Below are positions 15,040 to 28,992 of a DNA stretch of 64,000 bases, one piece after another (positions within the stretch are counted from its first letter, which is position 1; the number at the start of each line of letters is the position of its first letter). This DNA comes from Chryseobacterium luteum (GTDB taxonomy: Bacteria > Bacteroidota > Bacteroidia > Flavobacteriales > Weeksellaceae): assembly GCF_000737785.1 (NCBI RefSeq), contig NZ_JPRO01000002.1:186001-250000 (forward strand), written 5' to 3'. The position numbers were made by a program, and so were the translations under genes. The notes beneath the pieces are model-generated. The model was not told where the DNA came from, did no database searches, and saw nothing but the letters and a program-made list of their open reading frames with translations.

Positions 15040-15072
15040 GATGTTTATTTTTTAGCGTTTTTTTATAATGAT

Positions 15073-15207
15073 GCCCAACGGTTTCGGGGCTTGGCATTCG
15101 GGCGGGATTTCTTGCACAAAAGTTAAGCTTTGCACTAATACCAAATTTATAACAAAAAAGTTCAAGTTTGCACTTCAGCCCGTCTGACAACCCTTTTTGG
15201 CGGCAGT
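15073..15207 (-). other. attC-like recombination site (relic array)
   Basis: The left end, cccaacggtttcggggcttggc, matches the conserved cataacgtttcggggcttggcg of the sites at 23.9 and 25.4 kb. The right end, cttcagcccgtctgacaacc, pairs with it imperfectly. The site lies right after the stop of the gene at 15212-15784, the normal place for attC. The gene-proximal core is degenerate (ctttttggcgg where other sites have cttgttatg), so it may no longer recombine. Confidence 0.6.
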
Positions 15208-15211
15208 GCTT

Positions 15212-19127: not shown

Positions 19128-19160
19128 CAAAAGTTGATTTTTGTATTTATTAATCTATCA

Positions 19161-19280
19161 GGTAACGTTTTAGGTGGGACTTTTAGCACTGAACTTCATT
19201 AAAATTACAGAACTTTGATTTAGCACTTCACTTTCATAGAAGCACTGAATCCCCACTTGCGTGTAGGTATTGTTATACCT
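19161..19280 (-). other. attC-like site of second cassette array
   Basis: The left end ggtaacgttttaggtggg and the right end ccccacttgcgtgtaggtattgttatacc form imperfect inverted halves (aggtgggac against ccccactt). The taacgttt and tgttata cores are as in the other sites. The middle carries ttagcactgaact and ttagcacttcac, the ttagcac element also seen in the sites at 22.7 and 24.6 kb. It lies 20 bases past the stop of the PIN-like gene. Confidence 0.65.
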
Positions 19281-19300
19281 TAGAGTTTCTTGTCGATTCG

Positions 19301-19810
19301 TTATTTTGTTAACGAACATTTAAACTTAATGTCCATCTCGTCTATGAACTGAAAATCATTTATCCAACGCACACCCATATTGTCGCAAACATTTGGAATT
19401 TTAATTTTGTTAGAGTTCAATGCAGTTACTTTTTCTTCTTTTGTTACTACGGTGGCATTTTCATATATGGAGTGTGCAATTACCCAAGGGTCAGCCAAAG
19501 ACCGAGCCTTAGTATTGTCAACCAAGTTTATATGATTTGGATTTGATGAATAGATTTTTTTCAAACAATTTGCAACTTGTTCACTAACTTTCTTAATTGG
19601 GATTTTACTATTTTTTAACCATTTAGAAAGGTCGTCTTCAGTTCTTACTATTTCTTCATAAACATATTCAGGAATAAAAATCTTTTCTTGTTTTCCAAGT
19701 TCTATTAATATTTCCCAATAGTCTGGACAAAACTTTGGATTGTAATATTTTTGCCATGCTTGAATTAGCACATTGGCATCTAAACAATATTTATTTGCCA
19801 TTGTGTTCAT
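19301..19810 (-). CDS. PIN-like DUF4411 protein (toxin-like)
   Basis: A 169-residue protein that fits the DUF4411 PIN-like family: KYCLDANVLIQAWQKYY at the start holds the first acidic residue of the nuclease site, EYVYEEIVRTEDDLSKWLK the second, and RSLADPWVIAHSIYENATVV with TKEEKV supplies the rest. Such proteins are predicted metal-dependent RNases. The gene overlaps the upstream ImmA/IrrE gene by four bases, the standard arrangement of this putative toxin-antitoxin-like pair. An attC-like site follows it directly, so both genes form one two-gene cassette. An alternative start lies at 19801 (MANKY). Confidence 0.8.
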   Translation of the reverse strand: MNTMANKYCLDANVLIQAWQKYYNPKFCPDYWEILIELGKQEKIFIPEYVYEEIVRTEDDLSKWLKNSKIPIKKVSEQVANCLKKIYSSNPNHINLVDNTKARSLADPWVIAHSIYENATVVTKEEKVTALNSNKIKIPNVCDNMGVRWINDFQFIDEMDIKFKCSLTK

Positions 19811-20985
19811 CTTATTAATTGAGATTCTAATTTTTGAAATTTATTTACTTGAACATTTAAAAGATTACTTGCTAAAGTTGGTTCAATATATCCTCCTCGA
19901 AATGCATCCAAAACGGTTTGTGTAAACAACCTACTATTTCTATTAAGTTGTAATAAAAAATAATTTGGACCGCCAGTCTTTTCTTTATCTTTTTGTTTTG
20001 CTTTCTTGTCTGCTTCTTTTCTTAAATATTCGGCAAAATCAATGTCTGCTTGTTTTTTGAGTTTCTGATAAGTAGGCACTGAAATAATATTTAGGTTTAA
20101 AGCTCGTACTAATAATGCAAATGAACTGACACCTAATTGTTTCGCAATTTTTAATATATCTTTTGAAGATTGAAACAATGAGATATCAAAATCCAATATT
20201 ATTTCCTTGGGCATAAGTGCATTTGCAGCTACTTCGTTACAAAATAATTCGACTGGATGAAATTTATCCTTTTGTTTCAAATTAGGTTCAACTTCGTTTG
20301 AAATACCTGTTTCTGCAATCCATATGTGTGCTAATTCATGAACTAAGGTGAAAAGTTGTGGTGCTTTCCAATCTTCTGAATTTACAAATATGAATGGAGC
20401 ATGAGAGTCAGCAATTGCAAAGCCTTGTAATTCTTCAGAGTCTAATTTCAATCTAGAATGAATGAAACTTGTCCGTGATATAAATATTCCATTAGTTTCC
20501 GCTGCGTCTATCCACTCTTTTATTGGATTGTCGGATTTGTAGAATAATGGATTAATATTTAAAGTTTGTAGTATGTCATTTGCAACTTTTTGAGGGTTGT
20601 CATTTATGTTAAATCGCCCAACAAAAGGTAGTTTTTCTTCTTGATTTTCAGAATAAACATCACTTAACCACGCCTGTTTTTGCTGTATTTCTCTAATAAT
20701 AAAAATTGAAGAAGTTGTCAACGATTTTGAACCCGATTTTCTAAAGTCTTGTAAAGGTTGAAAGTCTCTAGGAATATCAGGTAAAAAGAAAAGAGCAAAA
20801 GGTCTTTTATATGATTTAGCTAATGTTTGTGCTTGTCGAATAGTTGGTTGGCTGAATCCAGCTTCCCAATCCCTCAACTTTTCAACAGACACAGAGATTT
20901 TGGCAGCAGCAATTTCCTCGGTCATTCTTGCCGATTCTCTTGCCCATTTTAGAACATTTGGTGTTATGTATGCTTTGTCTGCCAT
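19807..20985 (-). CDS. XRE plus ImmA/IrrE metallopeptidase protein
   Basis: A 392-residue fusion. Residues 8-60 are a helix-turn-helix (NVLKWARESARMTEEIAAAK and WEAGFSQPTIRQAQTLAKSY); the middle and C-terminal parts are a COG2856/ImmA-IrrE zinc peptidase with the motif LVHELAHIWI (HExxH) and a downstream Glu in LFCNEVAANALMP. In related systems the peptidase cleaves or senses a partner repressor. Here the partner is the DUF4411 PIN-like gene that overlaps its stop by four bases. It is the first gene after the second attI-like copy (21072-21178), so it could be expressed from the -7 box inside that site. Confidence 0.85.
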   Translation of the reverse strand: MADKAYITPNVLKWARESARMTEEIAAAKISVSVEKLRDWEAGFSQPTIRQAQTLAKSYKRPFALFFLPDIPRDFQPLQDFRKSGSKSLTTSSIFIIREIQQKQAWLSDVYSENQEEKLPFVGRFNINDNPQKVANDILQTLNINPLFYKSDNPIKEWIDAAETNGIFISRTSFIHSRLKLDSEELQGFAIADSHAPFIFVNSEDWKAPQLFTLVHELAHIWIAETGISNEVEPNLKQKDKFHPVELFCNEVAANALMPKEIILDFDISLFQSSKDILKIAKQLGVSSFALLVRALNLNIISVPTYQKLKKQADIDFAEYLRKEADKKAKQKDKEKTGGPNYFLLQLNRNSRLFTQTVLDAFRGGYIEPTLASNLLNVQVNKFQKLESQLIR

Positions 20986-22137: not shown

Positions 22138-22166
22138 AGTATATAAATTGCCTCGGTCGCTGACCG

Positions 22167-22235
22167 TTATATCATTCCTAGCATTCCACCTCCCATTGGC
22201 ATAGCAGGTTCAGCGCTTTTCACTTTAATGATTAC
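22167..22235 (-). pseudogene. Remnant of the groEL 3' end
   Basis: On the minus strand this reads [20 protein letters not shown] followed by MI and a stop, against [20 protein letters not shown] and MM at the true GroEL C-terminus (27251-27319). The DNA agrees closely (cattccacctcccattggc is shared, then atagcaggttcagcgct). Only about 23 codons remain; upstream the similarity ends at a palindromic repeat. It marks a duplicated groEL end about 5 kb from the gene. Confidence 0.85.
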
Positions 22236-22244
22236 ATAGCTGTT

Positions 22245-22726: not shown

Positions 22727-22858
22727 GTTAACGGTTGGCAGCTTGGCGAAGTGGCGGAAATCGAAGCATAAATGTTTTGTTTTGCACAAAAGTTCAATCG
22801 AAGAACTGCCGTGGAATTTAGCACTGAGCCCGCCATTTTGCCAAACTGCTGTTATGTG
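22727..22858 (-). other. attC-like site 4 (after the ParA-like cassette)
   Basis: Left end gttaacggttggcagcttggcg, with agtggcgg next; right end cccgccattttgcc followed by aaactgctgttatgtgc. The halves are inverted and imperfect (ttggcgaagtggcgg against ccgccattttgccaa), the hallmark of attC. The variable middle contains ttttgcacaaaagttcaatcg and tttagcactga, motifs shared with the other sites. It begins 9 bases past the stop of the ParA-like gene. Confidence 0.75.
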
Positions 22859-22866
22859 CTGCTTTT

Positions 22867-23889
22867 TTATAATTTAGTTACAACACCACTTATTGCATCT
22901 ATACAGTTTTGCCAATTTGGGTCTTGAATTTTTGTTTTATTTCCAAAAAGATGATGATCACCTTTTACTAGCATTGAAAAAGGAGTTGCTTCTGCAAATG
23001 CAACAACTCCAGTAGTTTGAAAATCTCTTACATCAACTACACCATCTGAAATATTGTTAAATGTAAAATGTTGCGGATGAGAAGCTAAAACTGCATTTAA
23101 GTCATTATCTATTGATGTTAAAACTGAAGCGTATGCAGATGCTGGTCCCATATATTGCGTAAGTCGATTTTTAATTATAAGATGTATTTTTGGTAATTGT
23201 CTACCAGCAGTCGTTAGCTTTGTATGAAATGCATACTGATTATATATAGCTGAAGGTAAATTTAATCCATAAACAAGTGAATAGATATTTGTTAATGCTC
23301 TTCTTGAACTATCATCTGCCATAACAGGTGCAATAATTCTATCTGTAGCTGCTAATGCAATTTGTGTATAAATAGCAAAACTCGGATTTGTGTCTATGAA
23401 CACATCATCATAAGAATTTAATTGATTTGATGCGTTAACTAAATCATTTACCCAATCTATAATTTTTAAATATGTATCGATTCCTGGTATTTGAGTTATT
23501 GATAATGCTGAAATTGAATTTGATTGTAATTCTACAATTCTGTCTCCTGCAATTAAGTCAATATTTACTGGTATTTTGGAATTTACTGCGCTTGGATTAC
23601 TTATGTAATTTGAAGCATTTATTGTTGGTGTATTGTATGGATTAGAAAATCTATCTTGAAAATATCCACCAATTGTACATACAGAAGTTGGTGTGGTTAA
23701 ATTATTTAGATTTGTAGAACCATTTCCAAGAAGTCCGCCCATAAAAAGTTCAGATAGATTTGCTTGTGGGCACAAGTCTATTGTTAAAATTTTTTTTTCA
23801 GGGAATTTGATTGCATATTCAGTAATTGTTTGAAATGCTAAACTTGATTTACCAGTTCCGCCTTTGTTGTTCCAAAATGTATATTTCAT
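22867..23889 (-). CDS. ParA/MinD-like ATPase, cassette-borne
   Basis: A 340-residue P-loop ATPase. The deviant Walker A motif is at the very start (TFWNNKGGTGKSSLAFQT, residues 4-21), the A' region is ILTIDLCPQANLSELFMGG, and the Walker B-like segment is YDDVFIDTNPSFAIYTQIAL. Family members position plasmids, chromosomes or protein complexes. Here no parB, parS or plasmid gene is adjacent; it is a single-gene unit with an attC-like site at each side. It may act in partitioning, defence or protein placement; sequence alone does not decide. Confidence 0.85.
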   Translation of the reverse strand: MKYTFWNNKGGTGKSSLAFQTITEYAIKFPEKKILTIDLCPQANLSELFMGGLLGNGSTNLNNLTTPTSVCTIGGYFQDRFSNPYNTPTINASNYISNPSAVNSKIPVNIDLIAGDRIVELQSNSISALSITQIPGIDTYLKIIDWVNDLVNASNQLNSYDDVFIDTNPSFAIYTQIALAATDRIIAPVMADDSSRRALTNIYSLVYGLNLPSAIYNQYAFHTKLTTAGRQLPKIHLIIKNRLTQYMGPASAYASVLTSIDNDLNAVLASHPQHFTFNNISDGVVDVRDFQTTGVVAFAEATPFSMLVKGDHHLFGNKTKIQDPNWQNCIDAISGVVTKL

Positions 23890-23935
23890 AATTTTTCTAT
23901 TTTAGTTTTTGTTTATCGTTTGAGTTAAAGTTGCA

Positions 23936-24068
23936 CATAACGTTTCGGGGCTTGGCGTCAGTGGCGACTTTTGTAATAATTTGTTCTAAAGATAAGCAAA
24001 ATTTCAACTTAGTAATTTCCGGCTAAGAAAAACTAAACCAGCCATTGCGCCAAACGGCTGTTATGGGC
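23936..24068 (-). other. attC-like site 3
   Basis: Left end cataacgtttcggggcttgg, continuing cgtcagtggcgac; right end agccattgcgccaaacggctg followed by ttatgggc. Inverted halves: cttggcgtcagtggc against gccattgcgccaaac. The left core taacg is followed, across the junction, by the start region of the ParA-like cassette; the right core gttatg is three bases from the stop of the gene at 24071. Confidence 0.8.
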
Positions 24069-24070
24069 AG

Positions 24071-24568
24071 TTATTGTATAATTAAAACACCTTCCGATTT
24101 TGATTCAATTCCAAATTCTTTTAATTCATCTTCGCAGGAAACTCTGATTACGTGAAACTTTACAATACAATCGTCGTAAATATCTATTTCATTTCCGTTC
24201 AATGTTTCACCAAAATAAATTAACACTCGAAAATCTTTCTGATAATGCTTGTTAAGTTGCTCATATATTCTTTTTCCGCATTCTACTCCAATTTTTAATT
24301 TTTCAAACTCATCTAATTTTTCTGAAACATAATCGCTGATATTTATGTCATTTAGAAATATTTCATATTCAGATTTCTTGAGTTCGGAATCAAGTTCTCC
24401 AGGACCAAAATATTGATAATCTTTAAATAAAATACAACCTTCTTCTTCTCTAAAACCCGAATTAATAAGTTCGTCTAATTCATTTGGTAAACTTACATTT
24501 TGAGATGTAAATTCAATTTTTCTATTTTTGAGAATAGACATCATTAATTTGTTTGTTGTAATTTTCAT
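24071..24568 (-). CDS. Hypothetical cassette protein
   Basis: A 165-residue acidic protein with no recognised family. I start it at 24568 (MKITTNKLMMSILKNRKIEF), because upstream codons run into the attC-like site of the previous cassette. Visible features are LPNELDELINSGFREEEGCI, which resembles a short helix-loop before a strand, and the acidic middle ELDSELKKSEYEIFLNDINI; the C-terminus is beta-rich (FHVIRVSCEDELKEFGIESK). It forms a single-gene cassette between attC-like sites 2 and 3. Confidence 0.6.
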   Translation of the reverse strand: MKITTNKLMMSILKNRKIEFTSQNVSLPNELDELINSGFREEEGCILFKDYQYFGPGELDSELKKSEYEIFLNDINISDYVSEKLDEFEKLKIGVECGKRIYEQLNKHYQKDFRVLIYFGETLNGNEIDIYDDCIVKFHVIRVSCEDELKEFGIESKSEGVLIIQ

Positions 24569-24590
24569 CTTGAGTTCCGTAATAATTGCC

Positions 24591-24680
24591 CATAACGTTT
24601 CGGGGCGATGGTGGGAAATCGAAGAACAAATGTTCAAATTAGCACTGAAGCCCCACTTTTGCAAAACCCTTGTTATGCGA
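24591..24680 (-). other. attC-like site 2 (short form)
   Basis: The shortest complete site, about 90 bases. Left end cataacgtttcggggcgatgg with tggg next; right end gccccacttttgcaaaaccc followed by ttgttatgcgacg. Inverted halves: ggggcgatggtggg against ccccacttttgc. The middle is only gaaatcgaagaacaaatg and a ttagcactga element. Confidence 0.8.
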
Positions 24681-24687
24681 CGTTTTT

Positions 24688-25401
24688 TTATTCCATAAAA
24701 ATATCATCACTTGGAATAAGTCCATTTTTTTTAGCTTGTTCAAAGTCATTTTGAGAGATAAATATAACATTTGCTATTTGGTCAATCGCTGGTAAAGCAA
24801 TAAATTTTTTGTTATTATTTGTTTTTGGCAATAATTGTTCATTAATTAATTGTTCAATAAAATTTGTATCAATCCAGTCTTGAATTTCATTGATGTCAAC
24901 GGTATATTTTAATTCTTCGTTTTTATTTGTCAAGATTGTTATATTGATTAAATTTCTTTTTTCAACAACATTTATTTTTTTGATTTGATTTTCAATTTCA
25001 GCAATTTTAATCATTTCTTTTAGAAGATTTTTGTAAGATTCTGCGGTTTCAAAACCTTCAGTGTCAAAACTCAAGTCTTCTAACGCTAAAAAAGAATAAT
25101 TTACTTCTAAATCGTTCTCAAGAATTTTAATAATTTCTTTCTTTTTATCTTCGTTTTTTTCATCAAACCAACTAAAACTTTTTAACACTTTTATATATTC
25201 TGATTTGCCTTTTGCTGTTAAAATTCTATATTCATCAATTCTTATTGAATCATTTTCAAAGCCGAATTTAGAAACACCTTCATTTGGCAAAGCTGGTAAA
25301 ACTTGTTTTGAAAACATTTCATTTTTTGTTTGTGAGCAAGATAATACAGTAAATAAAATACTTAATGTCGTGAATATTTCTTTTAGTAGGGTTGTTTTCA
25401 T
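24688..25401 (-). CDS. Hypothetical lipoprotein, cassette-borne
   Basis: A 237-residue protein. The start at 25401 gives a lipoprotein signal (MKTTLLKEIFTTLSILFTVL then SCSQ); codons further upstream lie inside the attC-like site of the preceding cassette. The mature part is Lys/Glu/Asn-rich with predicted alpha/beta structure (YRILTAKGKSEYIKVLKSFS, NVVEKRNLINITILTNKNEE). The C-terminus, LPAIDQIANVIFISQNDFEQ, has no recognised motif. Family unknown. It is a single-gene cassette; an envelope lipoprotein as cassette cargo is common in integron arrays. Confidence 0.65.
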   Translation of the reverse strand: MKTTLLKEIFTTLSILFTVLSCSQTKNEMFSKQVLPALPNEGVSKFGFENDSIRIDEYRILTAKGKSEYIKVLKSFSWFDEKNEDKKKEIIKILENDLEVNYSFLALEDLSFDTEGFETAESYKNLLKEMIKIAEIENQIKKINVVEKRNLINITILTNKNEELKYTVDINEIQDWIDTNFIEQLINEQLLPKTNNNKKFIALPAIDQIANVIFISQNDFEQAKKNGLIPSDDIFME

Positions 25402-25412
25402 AAAATGTCGCA

Positions 25413-25540
25413 TAACGTTTCGGGGCTTGGCGAAGGCGGGGATTTTTAGCACAAAAGTTCAATAGAATTACTACCGTTGAACCTTGCACAAAAGCTCAAT
25501 CGAAGAACTTCAGCCCCGCTTTTGGCAAACCCTTGTTAGC
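25413..25540 (-). other. attC-like site 1
   Basis: Left end taacgtttcggggcttggcg with aaggcgggg next; right end cttcagccccgcttttggca followed by aacccttgttagcc. Inverted halves: cttggcgaaggcggggat against ccccgcttttggcaaac. The stop codon of the first cassette gene (25536-25538) is formed by the taaca of the right-hand core itself. The middle repeats acaaaagttcaat and acaaaagctcaatcgaagaac. Confidence 0.82.
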
Positions 25541-26207
25541 CACAGTTTTTATTTTCGGTTAGTTCTTGTTTCAAATTGTCTGTAACTAAGTTGTTTGTAG
25601 TTAAATAACAACTCATTGTTTTTAAAAACTTCTTTGCTTGTTTTAAATAGTCTTTGTCAAATTTTGTATTGTCAACTATTTCTAAATTTCTATACGCTCT
25701 CAAAATAAATCGTCCAGCACCTTCAAAATGCTTACTTATAAATAGCGTCCCAATCAAAGACACGTAAGATACAAACTCGTATTGAATATGATTTCTTTTT
25801 AGATACTCAATTGGTAATTGCTCATTCATACTTTGAAAAGGGGAAATAATTCCAATGTCTTTCAAGTATTTTTCTTTTTCAATTACAAACCAGTCGTCCA
25901 ATATTTCTCCGTTCAAATCGGTTTCAAGTTGGTAGTAACCAATTCCTTCTAAATTTTCAGTCCAATATTGGTTTTCAACATACAAACCTATTTTAGTTCT
26001 GATAATTGAAGTGCCATTTCGTCTGTCAATGTGATAGACAAATCCATCGAACTTTGTAATGATTTCGTCTTGCCTAAAACCTCCTAAAAAGTCCTTATCA
26101 TCTGAGTTGTTAGCAAAAATTTTGTCAAGAGTGTCAAACGCAGTCTTTTTTAAGTCAAATGACTTAACTCTTTCTTTCAATAATAGTTCAAGTTCTTGGT
26201 CTGTCAT
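25536..26207 (-). CDS. Hypothetical protein, first cassette
   Basis: A 223-residue soluble protein of unknown family, next to the attI-like site and therefore the cassette most likely to be expressed. The ATG at 26207 (MTDQELELLLKERVKSF) is preferred over a TTG further upstream that lies across the recombination point. Features: KFDGFVYHIDRRNGTSIIRT and VENQYWTENLEGIGYYQLET, a beta-rich middle; helical C-terminus with KDYLKQAKKFLKTMSCYL. Its stop codon lies inside the attC core, a sign of cassette origin. Confidence 0.65.
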   Translation of the reverse strand: MTDQELELLLKERVKSFDLKKTAFDTLDKIFANNSDDKDFLGGFRQDEIITKFDGFVYHIDRRNGTSIIRTKIGLYVENQYWTENLEGIGYYQLETDLNGEILDDWFVIEKEKYLKDIGIISPFQSMNEQLPIEYLKRNHIQYEFVSYVSLIGTLFISKHFEGAGRFILRAYRNLEIVDNTKFDKDYLKQAKKFLKTMSCYLTTNNLVTDNLKQELTENKNCG

Positions 26208-26215
26208 AAAATTGT

Positions 26216-26325
26216 GGCTAACGTCCAAATTTACGCAATGCGATAATATGGACTATACACAATTGCGCTAATGTTGTTTTAATTTTAGTTATCTATTTGT
26301 TAATCATAAAATTAAAATTTATTAT
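26216..26325 (-). other. attI-like site with embedded cassette promoter
   Basis: Between the integrase ATG and the first cassette. On the cassette strand: gcgcaat direct or near-direct repeats, then TAAATTTG (complement of 26226-26233, a perfect Bacteroidota -7 box), then GGACGTTAGCC with the presumed crossover at the GTT. A near-copy exists at 21077-21178. A -33 TTG at the usual distance is clear in the second copy (tattgtat) but not in this one. In integrons the Pc promoter also lies in or beside attI, so first-cassette transcription from here is plausible. Confidence 0.65.
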
Positions 26326-26331
26326 ATTTGG
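26304..26331 (+). promoter_or_regulatory. Probable integrase promoter
   Basis: A perfect -7 box TATATTTG at 26324-26331 with tttg about 17-19 bases upstream, in the spacing normal for the Bacteroidota primary sigma factor. The integrase ATG follows 22 bases later. Confidence 0.6.
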
Positions 26332-26352
26332 ATAAACGCACAAACTTTAAAA

Positions 26353-27186
26353 ATGAATAAAAATTATGTAGAAGATTTTGCTACGATATTGCGCCTTCAG
26401 CGGTATGCAAAAAGCAGTATTAAAACCTATACCTCTCATTTGTCTTATTTTTTGAAACTCTCCGCAAAGTTTCAACCTGAAGATATCACACAAAAACAAT
26501 TGGAAGATTTTGTTATCTGGCTCGTTGAAAAGAAAAAAGTGGGATCATCTTATCAAAAAGCAATGATTTCTACTATTGTGAAATTTTATAAAGAAACTTT
26601 TCAAAGAACAATTAATTTAAAACATCTTTACCCTCAAAGAAGTGAAAATAAATTGCCGAAATTTTTAACTAAAATGGAAGTGAAAAAGATTTTAGATTCT
26701 ACTTCCAATATAAAACATAAAGCAATTCTTACAACCATTTACTCTTGTGGTCTCAGATTAGGCGAATTATTAGAACTTAAAATTTCTGATATTAAAACAG
26801 ATCAGAATATTCTGCTAATCAGACAAGCAAAAGGAAATAAAGATAGAGTAGTAATGCTCTCCTTCAAACTTATTGAGCTACTGAGAGAATATTATAAAAT
26901 CTATAACCCTACAAAATATTTATTTGAAGGTTCTGAAAATGAAAAATATTCTCAGAGAAGCGTTCAGCAGATTATGAAGTCATCACTGAAAAAATCTGGT
27001 GTAGATTCTCCTGCCTCCGTTCACACGTTGCGGCATTCTTATGCGACACATCTTTTAGAAAACGGGACAAATATTAGAATCATTAAAGAGCTTTTAGGAC
27101 ACAATAATATCAAAACAACGGAGATTTATACACATATTACGGATGTCAGCAAAAATAATATAAAAAGTCCTTTAGATTTTCTATAA
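26353..27186 (+). CDS. IntI-like tyrosine recombinase without the IntI-specific insert
   Basis: A 277-residue site-specific recombinase. The N-terminal SAM-like domain (YAKSSIKTYTSHLSYFLKLS, residues 18-37) aligns with IntI and XerC. NKLPKFLTKMEVKKIL matches the IntI block RLPVVLTPDEVVRIL. All catalytic residues are visible: Arg135 (SCGLRLGELL), Lys160 (RQAKGNKDR), His224 and Arg227 (VHTLRHSYATHLL), His250 (LLGHNNIKTTE) and Tyr259 (IYTHI). The C-terminus KSPLDFL copies the SPLD ending of IntI. The extra segment of about 20 residues between the second and third boxes of true IntI proteins is absent (NPTKYLFEG instead). The gene is divergent from the cassette array and ends 64 bases from the groEL stop. 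Confidence 0.88.
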   Translation: MNKNYVEDFATILRLQRYAKSSIKTYTSHLSYFLKLSAKFQPEDITQKQLEDFVIWLVEKKKVGSSYQKAMISTIVKFYKETFQRTINLKHLYPQRSENKLPKFLTKMEVKKILDSTSNIKHKAILTTIYSCGLRLGELLELKISDIKTDQNILLIRQAKGNKDRVVMLSFKLIELLREYYKIYNPTKYLFEGSENEKYSQRSVQQIMKSSLKKSGVDSPASVHTLRHSYATHLLENGTNIRIIKELLGHNNIKTTEIYTHITDVSKNNIKSPLDFL

Positions 27187-27222: not shown

Positions 27223-27250
27223 AAATTTATATTTTCTCAGCGACACACTG

Positions 27251-28992
<1,742 letters not shown>

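Follow-up and report, generated by a model that had tools for sequence, protein, structure and literature searches.

A probable integron lineage with a domain-less integrase in Chryseobacterium luteum and other Bacteroidota

INTRODUCTION

Can a cassette array next to a recombinase that lacks the IntI-specific domain be an integron? The question is raised by a locus of Chryseobacterium luteum (positions 22727–27186) in a stretch of 64 000 nt, referred to here as the window (contig NZ_JPRO01000002.1, positions 186 001–250 000 of the forward strand; assembly GCF_000737785.1, a 4.7-Mb genome in 49 contigs). An initial annotation of the window described there a tyrosine recombinase gene, an attI-like region and cassettes closed by attC-like sites, and proposed a distinct integron lineage. 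We consider it very probable, from comparison of sequences, that the locus represents an integron lineage with a domain-less integrase.

The additional domain of the integron integrase IntI contacts extrahelical bases of attC. One survey, in the part of its text available, chose intI genes by this additional domain or patch (PMC2426708), and another, in the part likewise available, treats the domain as a defining characteristic and dropped from its tree the rows that covered it only partly (PMC9668308); with selection of this kind, domain-less integrons would therefore be missed or be seen only as integrase-less clusters. Besides Chlorobi and Ignavibacteriae, the accessible portion of the IntegronFinder 2.0 report gives one complete integron in Bacteroidetes, that of Salinibacter (PMC9024848). 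In the open-access literature, covered by titles and the starts of abstracts, with subscription papers and preprints outside the search, we recognized no domain-less integron of Bacteroidota.

RESULTS

Array layout, junctions and cassette signature

The plus-strand recombinase gene and, opposite it, four minus-strand cassettes closed by attC-like sites were found where the initial annotation had placed them (Table 1). The claim of a four-cassette array stood as regards these four but made the array too short, two more site matches lying on the same strand. The proposed attI-like region is also borne out: it is conserved up to a GTT in the window and in the corresponding loci L009 and L011–L014 (loci from other genomes are given L numbers) and diverges beyond it. 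The window's first cassette starts with bases complementary to those that precede its attC, and each of the nine arrays compared has a matching cassette start, a 7-base match within 3 kb being weak on its own in the distant ones.

In a cassette that was once circular, the stretch preceding the AAC of the attC pairs with the stretch that follows the GTT at the start of that cassette. Among 20 cassettes from nine arrays, a mean of 6.75 of 9 positions were complementary, compared with 3.56 when partners were swapped, and none of 10 000 permutations scored as high; the three low scores in this test (one in L009, two in L014) span sites that the covariance model described below matched later, one of them only at E 0.1. 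When the sites found with the model were used, giving a larger set of 84 consecutive pairs, 65 reached at least 6 of 8 complementary positions (6 % expected by chance); the cassettes of these 65 have a median length of 985 bp. The window's own three pairs score 7, 7 and 6 of 8.

The cassettes are not constant between relatives. The nearest one, L009, has a recombinase that is 90 % identical and groL on the same flank as in the window, yet a tblastn search (E≤1e-10) of the 10 kb on its array side found none of the proteins of the window's four cassettes. Cassette 2 does reappear elsewhere: the array of L014, from another species, encodes a protein 86 % identical to its product.

The attC-like sites

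Earlier hand-made scans gave GC-rich chance matches in Bacteroides loci and missed true sites, and a covariance model built from 28 sites, the window's four among them, was used instead. This locally tuned model recovers those four training sites and the two more in the window, and gives 29 matches at E≤0.001, on several contigs, in the whole genome; at the same threshold there was none in 14 control loci (XerC, XerD, other tyrosine recombinases and one canonical IntI). At 12 of the 16 consensus stem pairs, at least one sequence has both sides changed with pairing kept, in sites that had originally been picked by a fold-based scan. Further clusters of sites occur in the same genome on contigs C6, C10, C20 and C24, away from the window recombinase. 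A known RNA motif was considered and rejected: no Rfam family reached its gathering score in the window, L014 or L083, and none had E≤0.1 in positions 1–10000 of L014.

The arms of 134 new sites were folded with DNA parameters and compared with those of 19 canonical attC sites from the Bacteroidota arrays L204 and L209, the only two of 11 canonical loci scanned that gave clear arrays (13 of 14 and 6 of 6 candidates used, a choice made by eye). A one-sided bulge is present in 23 of the 134 new sites on the bottom strand and in 47 on the top strand, as against 19 of 19 canonical sites on either strand, a contrast of uncertain size. Of the 134 new sites, 124 fold more stably as the bottom strand (by a mean of 2.2 kcal/mol), as do only 6 of the 19 canonical ones, and by eye A-C mismatches of the top strand correspond to T-G wobbles of the bottom strand. 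Beside the cut site the unpaired spacer is most often of 6 nt on one side and 2 nt on the other; it is uneven in canonical sites too. The sites are, as first described, attC-like imperfect palindromes; their difference from canonical attC had gone unnoticed. The extra domain and the extrahelical bases are missing together here. Strand choice would appear to rest on stability, and perhaps on the spacer.

The recombinase

The window recombinase matches PF00589 (E 3e-42) and scores 198.3 bits, in two pieces, against the canonical IntI model TIGR02249 (curated cut-off 265), 220.2 bits against the XerA model NF040815, just above its cut-off of 220, and below the cut-offs of XerD (186.6 of 329.6 bits) and XerC (174.6 of 335.15 bits). 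The IntI-specific segment is indeed missing: the stretch between the conserved boxes has 21 residues, compared with 63 in 19 of 20 canonical IntI rows (the twentieth, L118, was left out of the count, having measured 58 in a wrong frame) and 25–32 in XerC/XerD rows. The catalytic residues R135, H224, R227, H250 and Y259 are, as had been claimed, conserved in this open-frame copy. In a tree the recombinase shares with IntI a joint branch (support 100/100) apart from XerC/XerD; when XerA and Bacteroides rows are added, the joint IntI-like set is recovered at 100/96 with both XerA rows outside it, the branching order within the set not being resolved. Its nearest solved structures by fold are XerA and XerH, and its closest named relatives are from Epilithonimonas and Chryseobacterium. 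With the domain absent and the TIGR02249 score under its cut-off, the protein falls outside the definition of IntI, but is likely, judging from its sequence, to be an integron integrase, a relative of IntI without the IntI-specific domain.

A subgroup of the recombinases (L183 7758–8834, L083, L085, L099 and L100) has about 80 additional N-terminal residues, weakly DUF5710-like in some. The idea, formed by eye, of a HARP-like N-terminal domain in these longer proteins was dropped, as Pfam listed none in eight proteins and a weak DUF5710 in three.

Association of sites with the recombinase

Among 148 genomes of the host's family, 112 have sites (E≤1e-6) and 84 the recombinase (E≤1e-50). Loci were surveyed for the best 60 of 97 recombinase rows in the family, and 45 of these 60 have sites in the fetched stretch: at 34 all sites are 5′ of the recombinase gene and divergent from it, at ten all are 3′ and co-directional, and one is odd. 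Of the 153 sites, 152 point away from the recombinase gene; with the six loci that hold training sites excluded, the counts are 39 of 54 loci and 128 of 129 sites. Sites had been in view when thirteen stretches were cut; of the 46 cut 8 kb to each side, 32 have sites. The sites are linked to the ends of cassettes and follow the polarity of the array, and palindromes equally frequent away from gene ends were not found. A phage or plasmid integrase with chance repeats was set aside on this linkage and polarity. The ten co-directional loci are L094, L095, L156, L157, L162–L165, L168 and L182.

In a sample of 395 Bacteroidota genomes, at the same thresholds, 166 have sites, 106 the recombinase and 105 a canonical IntI over cut-off. 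Sites are present in 85 of 106 genomes with the recombinase and in 81 of 289 without it (odds ratio 10, related genomes being counted as independent), whereas with canonical IntI they are present in 32 of 105 and without it in 134 of 290, which is no positive association. With the site model, neither of the canonical arrays L204 and L209 gave a match at E≤0.01, and the 18 canonical loci together gave four weak matches, all in L203, whose genome carries both recombinases. The host is a flavobacterium, as the initial annotation had supposed, but the system is not confined to that group, sites occurring in 92 of the 170 Bacteroidota genera sampled.

Resistance-gene plasmids and Riemerella

A plasmid search with one attC returned 60 records. 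An Empedobacter brevis plasmid carries arr, lnu(H) and tet(X2), each closed by a site of the new attC family; two of these units, those of lnu(H) and tet(X2), have the circle signature and are full cassettes. On the Acinetobacter plasmid pAI01 (L051), tet(X3) follows a truncated recombinase of the window's family, 48 % identical to the window protein over residues 96–277 and within the IntI-like set of the tree. A GTT junction precedes tet(X3), and the cassette start is the same as that of tet(X2). Unlike a full cassette, however, the unit is followed by the left half only of a site (18.9 bits, E 0.15 with the covariance model), and the bases before the AAC of this half site show no match to the start of the tet(X3) cassette, so that there is no circle signature. 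The resistance-gene plasmid loci examined were L050, L051 and L052.

In Riemerella anatipestifer, a 2026 paper, in the portion available, describes homology-free, site-specific uptake of aph(3′)-IVb, calls a 140-bp 3′ region attC-like, gives lnu(H) and blaRATA as parallels, and in that portion leaves the mechanism unexplained and names no recombinase (PMC13148043). This species carries a recombinase of the family (P0121, 98 % identical to that of L183) with one site nearby, which together with the attC-like tail and the site-specific integration recalls the present system, and we infer that the family recombinase is responsible for the homology-free uptake. On the other hand, the L183 site is oddly oriented, and the relE-hthR-cdf locus of that paper was not recognized in the listed L183 stretch.

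DISCUSSION

By its layout, in which most cassettes carry a single gene and close with a foldable attC, its junctions and its predicted behaviour the locus is an integron, and the proposal of a distinct lineage is supported: the recombinase does not fall inside XerC/XerD, the cassettes vary in relatives and the sites are linked to gene ends. What the sequences themselves show is the layout, the junctions of attI with cassettes, the circle signature and the differing cassettes of relatives, and also that recombinase and attC family co-occur, that the domain is missing and that the hairpin is not the canonical one. Several points weigh against this interpretation. The evidence is comparative throughout, and integration activity is predicted. 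Sites were absent from the fetched stretch at 15 of the 60 recombinase loci, several of them at contig ends, and the sole oddly oriented site is that of the Riemerella-like locus L183; in the phylum sample the recombinase is missing (at E≤1e-50) from 81 of the 166 genomes with sites, and sites are missing (at E≤1e-6) from 21 of the 106 genomes with the recombinase. With related genomes counted as independent the p-values are too small, and it is the contrast between the two recombinases that counts. The size of the bulge contrast is made uncertain by the even stem of the model and by canonical sites that are near-copies from two arrays. Finally, domain-less relatives without sites from Bacteroides fall in the same IntI-like set, and the missing domain alone is therefore no mark of an integron integrase; of the 16 Bacteroides-type loci (L018–L033), the 10 searched with the covariance model gave no match at E≤1.

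The site-bearing genomes without a recombinase, and the site clusters on other contigs of the same genome, would also suit a different explanation, namely that the array is a cluster of attC sites lacking an integrase (CALIN), a class reported in integron surveys according to the available part of PMC9024848, moved by a canonical IntI from elsewhere, with an unrelated Xer-like enzyme as its neighbour. Against this stand the polarity of all but one of the surveyed sites, which point away from the recombinase, the conserved attI-like region beside it, the tracking by the sites of the window-type recombinase and not of IntI, the near-silence of the site model in canonical loci, and the lack of any canonical IntI at E≤1e-40 in the nine genomes of the host's own family in the phylum sample; we regard a CALIN as very unlikely. 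It is a shade less likely still, in our view, that the locus is a fossil, an integron that worked in an ancestor and whose window recombinase no longer acts. Interrupted recombinase genes do occur in several relatives (L014–L017 and L043, and other rows with stops), but the window copy is a single open frame with its catalytic residues conserved, and the cassettes beside it are not those of the nearest relative.

The resemblance in fold to XerA and XerH might suggest that the hairpins are recombination sites in dif modules of the XerC/XerD type, or repeats dispersed by a transposase, with only the look of an integron. Such sites are 28 bp in the case of dif, whereas those described here are long imperfect hairpins with covarying stems; the circle signature and the attI junction fit cassette exchange, and the XerC, XerD and other recombinase loci tested are free of sites. 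We find this explanation scarcely credible, and a XerC/XerD or dif module was set aside on model scores, tree and site-free control loci. With XerA-type recombinases (NF040815; PDB 4a8e, 5hxy) the window protein does share domain make-up and fold, but the XerA rows lie outside the IntI-like set and the window recombinase adjoins attI and attC arrays.

The preferred interpretation, an integron with a domain-less integrase, can be set beside canonical integrons, including those of other Bacteroidota. Both have an integrase that groups with IntI and has an SPLD-like C-terminal tail, an attI with a GTT junction, cassettes of one gene plus attC, and the circle signature; the new system differs in a recombinase without a 42-residue segment, in attC sites that mostly have no one-sided bulge and that fold more stably as the bottom strand, and in its co-directional arrangement at 10 of 45 loci. 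In our working model the recombinase would cut and join folded, single-stranded attC and attI, by which cassettes would be gained, lost and reshuffled. It would act on the bottom strand, the more stably folding one, with the uneven unpaired spacer next to the cut site perhaps aiding strand choice, and this would replace the extrahelical bases read by the IntI-specific domain in canonical integrons. That a domain-less integrase reads folded attC without extrahelical bases seems likely from these comparisons.

A wider picture, which we offer tentatively and hold to fall a little short of probable as a whole, is of a second, phylum-wide kind of integron in which domain-less integrases read bulge-free attC, with the stability of wobbles against mismatches and an uneven spacer deciding the strand; canonical IntI may have gained its domain from such an ancestral state, and the cassette pool of these integrons would be the source of flavobacterial resistance genes, tet(X) and lnu(H) among them, including those of the homology-free uptake in Riemerella. 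Since the recombinases beside these arrays lack the domain used to recognize integron integrases, it is likely that gene-catching integrons of Bacteroidota have so far escaped the counts; one complete integron is reported in Bacteroidetes, while the new attC family is present in 166 of 395 Bacteroidota genomes. If active, the system would handle folded attC without a domain reported as necessary, would provide a natural comparison for how the attC strand is chosen, and would be a testable source of resistance cassettes such as lnu(H), arr and tet(X2).

Other features of the window

Table 1. Features of the recombinase and cassette locus (window coordinates)
Feature	Position	Strand	Description	Basis
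Tyrosine recombinase	26353–27186	+	277 aa, single open frame	PF00589, NF040815 and TIGR02249 searches, trees
attI-like region	26220–26282	-	Junction at GTT 26222–26220; cassette 1 begins at 26219	Conservation in relatives
Cassette 1 gene	25536–26207	-	223 aa, no family match	Family profile searches
attC 1	25414–25537	-	AAC to GTT, 124 nt	Site scan and covariance model
Cassette 2 gene	24688–25401	-	237 aa, lipoprotein-like by eye	Open reading frame
attC 2	24594–24674	-	AAC to GTT, 81 nt, short loop	Site scan and covariance model
Cassette 3 gene	24071–24568	-	165 aa, no family match	Family profile searches
attC 3	23939–24062	-	AAC to GTT, 124 nt	Site scan and covariance model
Cassette 4 gene	22867–23889	-	340 aa, ParA-like ATPase (AAA_31)	PF13614, E 2e-13
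attC 4	22730–22853	-	AAC to GTT, 124 nt	Site scan and covariance model
Additional attC-like match	19154–19284	-	40.6 bits, after DUF4411 (PIN) and ImmA/IrrE gene pair	Covariance model
Additional attC-like match	15067–15208	-	57.3 bits	Covariance model

A promoter scan of the attI region gave two matches compared with 1.3 in shuffled sequences, and no promoter is claimed. At 19301–20985 lies a gene pair encoding a DUF4411 (PIN) protein and an HTH-ImmA/IrrE protein, the second gene matching RmrA defence models; situated just upstream of the attC-like match at 19154, this pair is likely to be a multi-gene cassette. The locus may be an island at the 3′ end of groL. A 74-bp segment of the groL 3′ end is duplicated, at 88 % identity, beyond the first four cassettes (22163–22236 and 27247–27320), and in L010 a groL-tail fragment sits between the recombinase gene and an intact groL.

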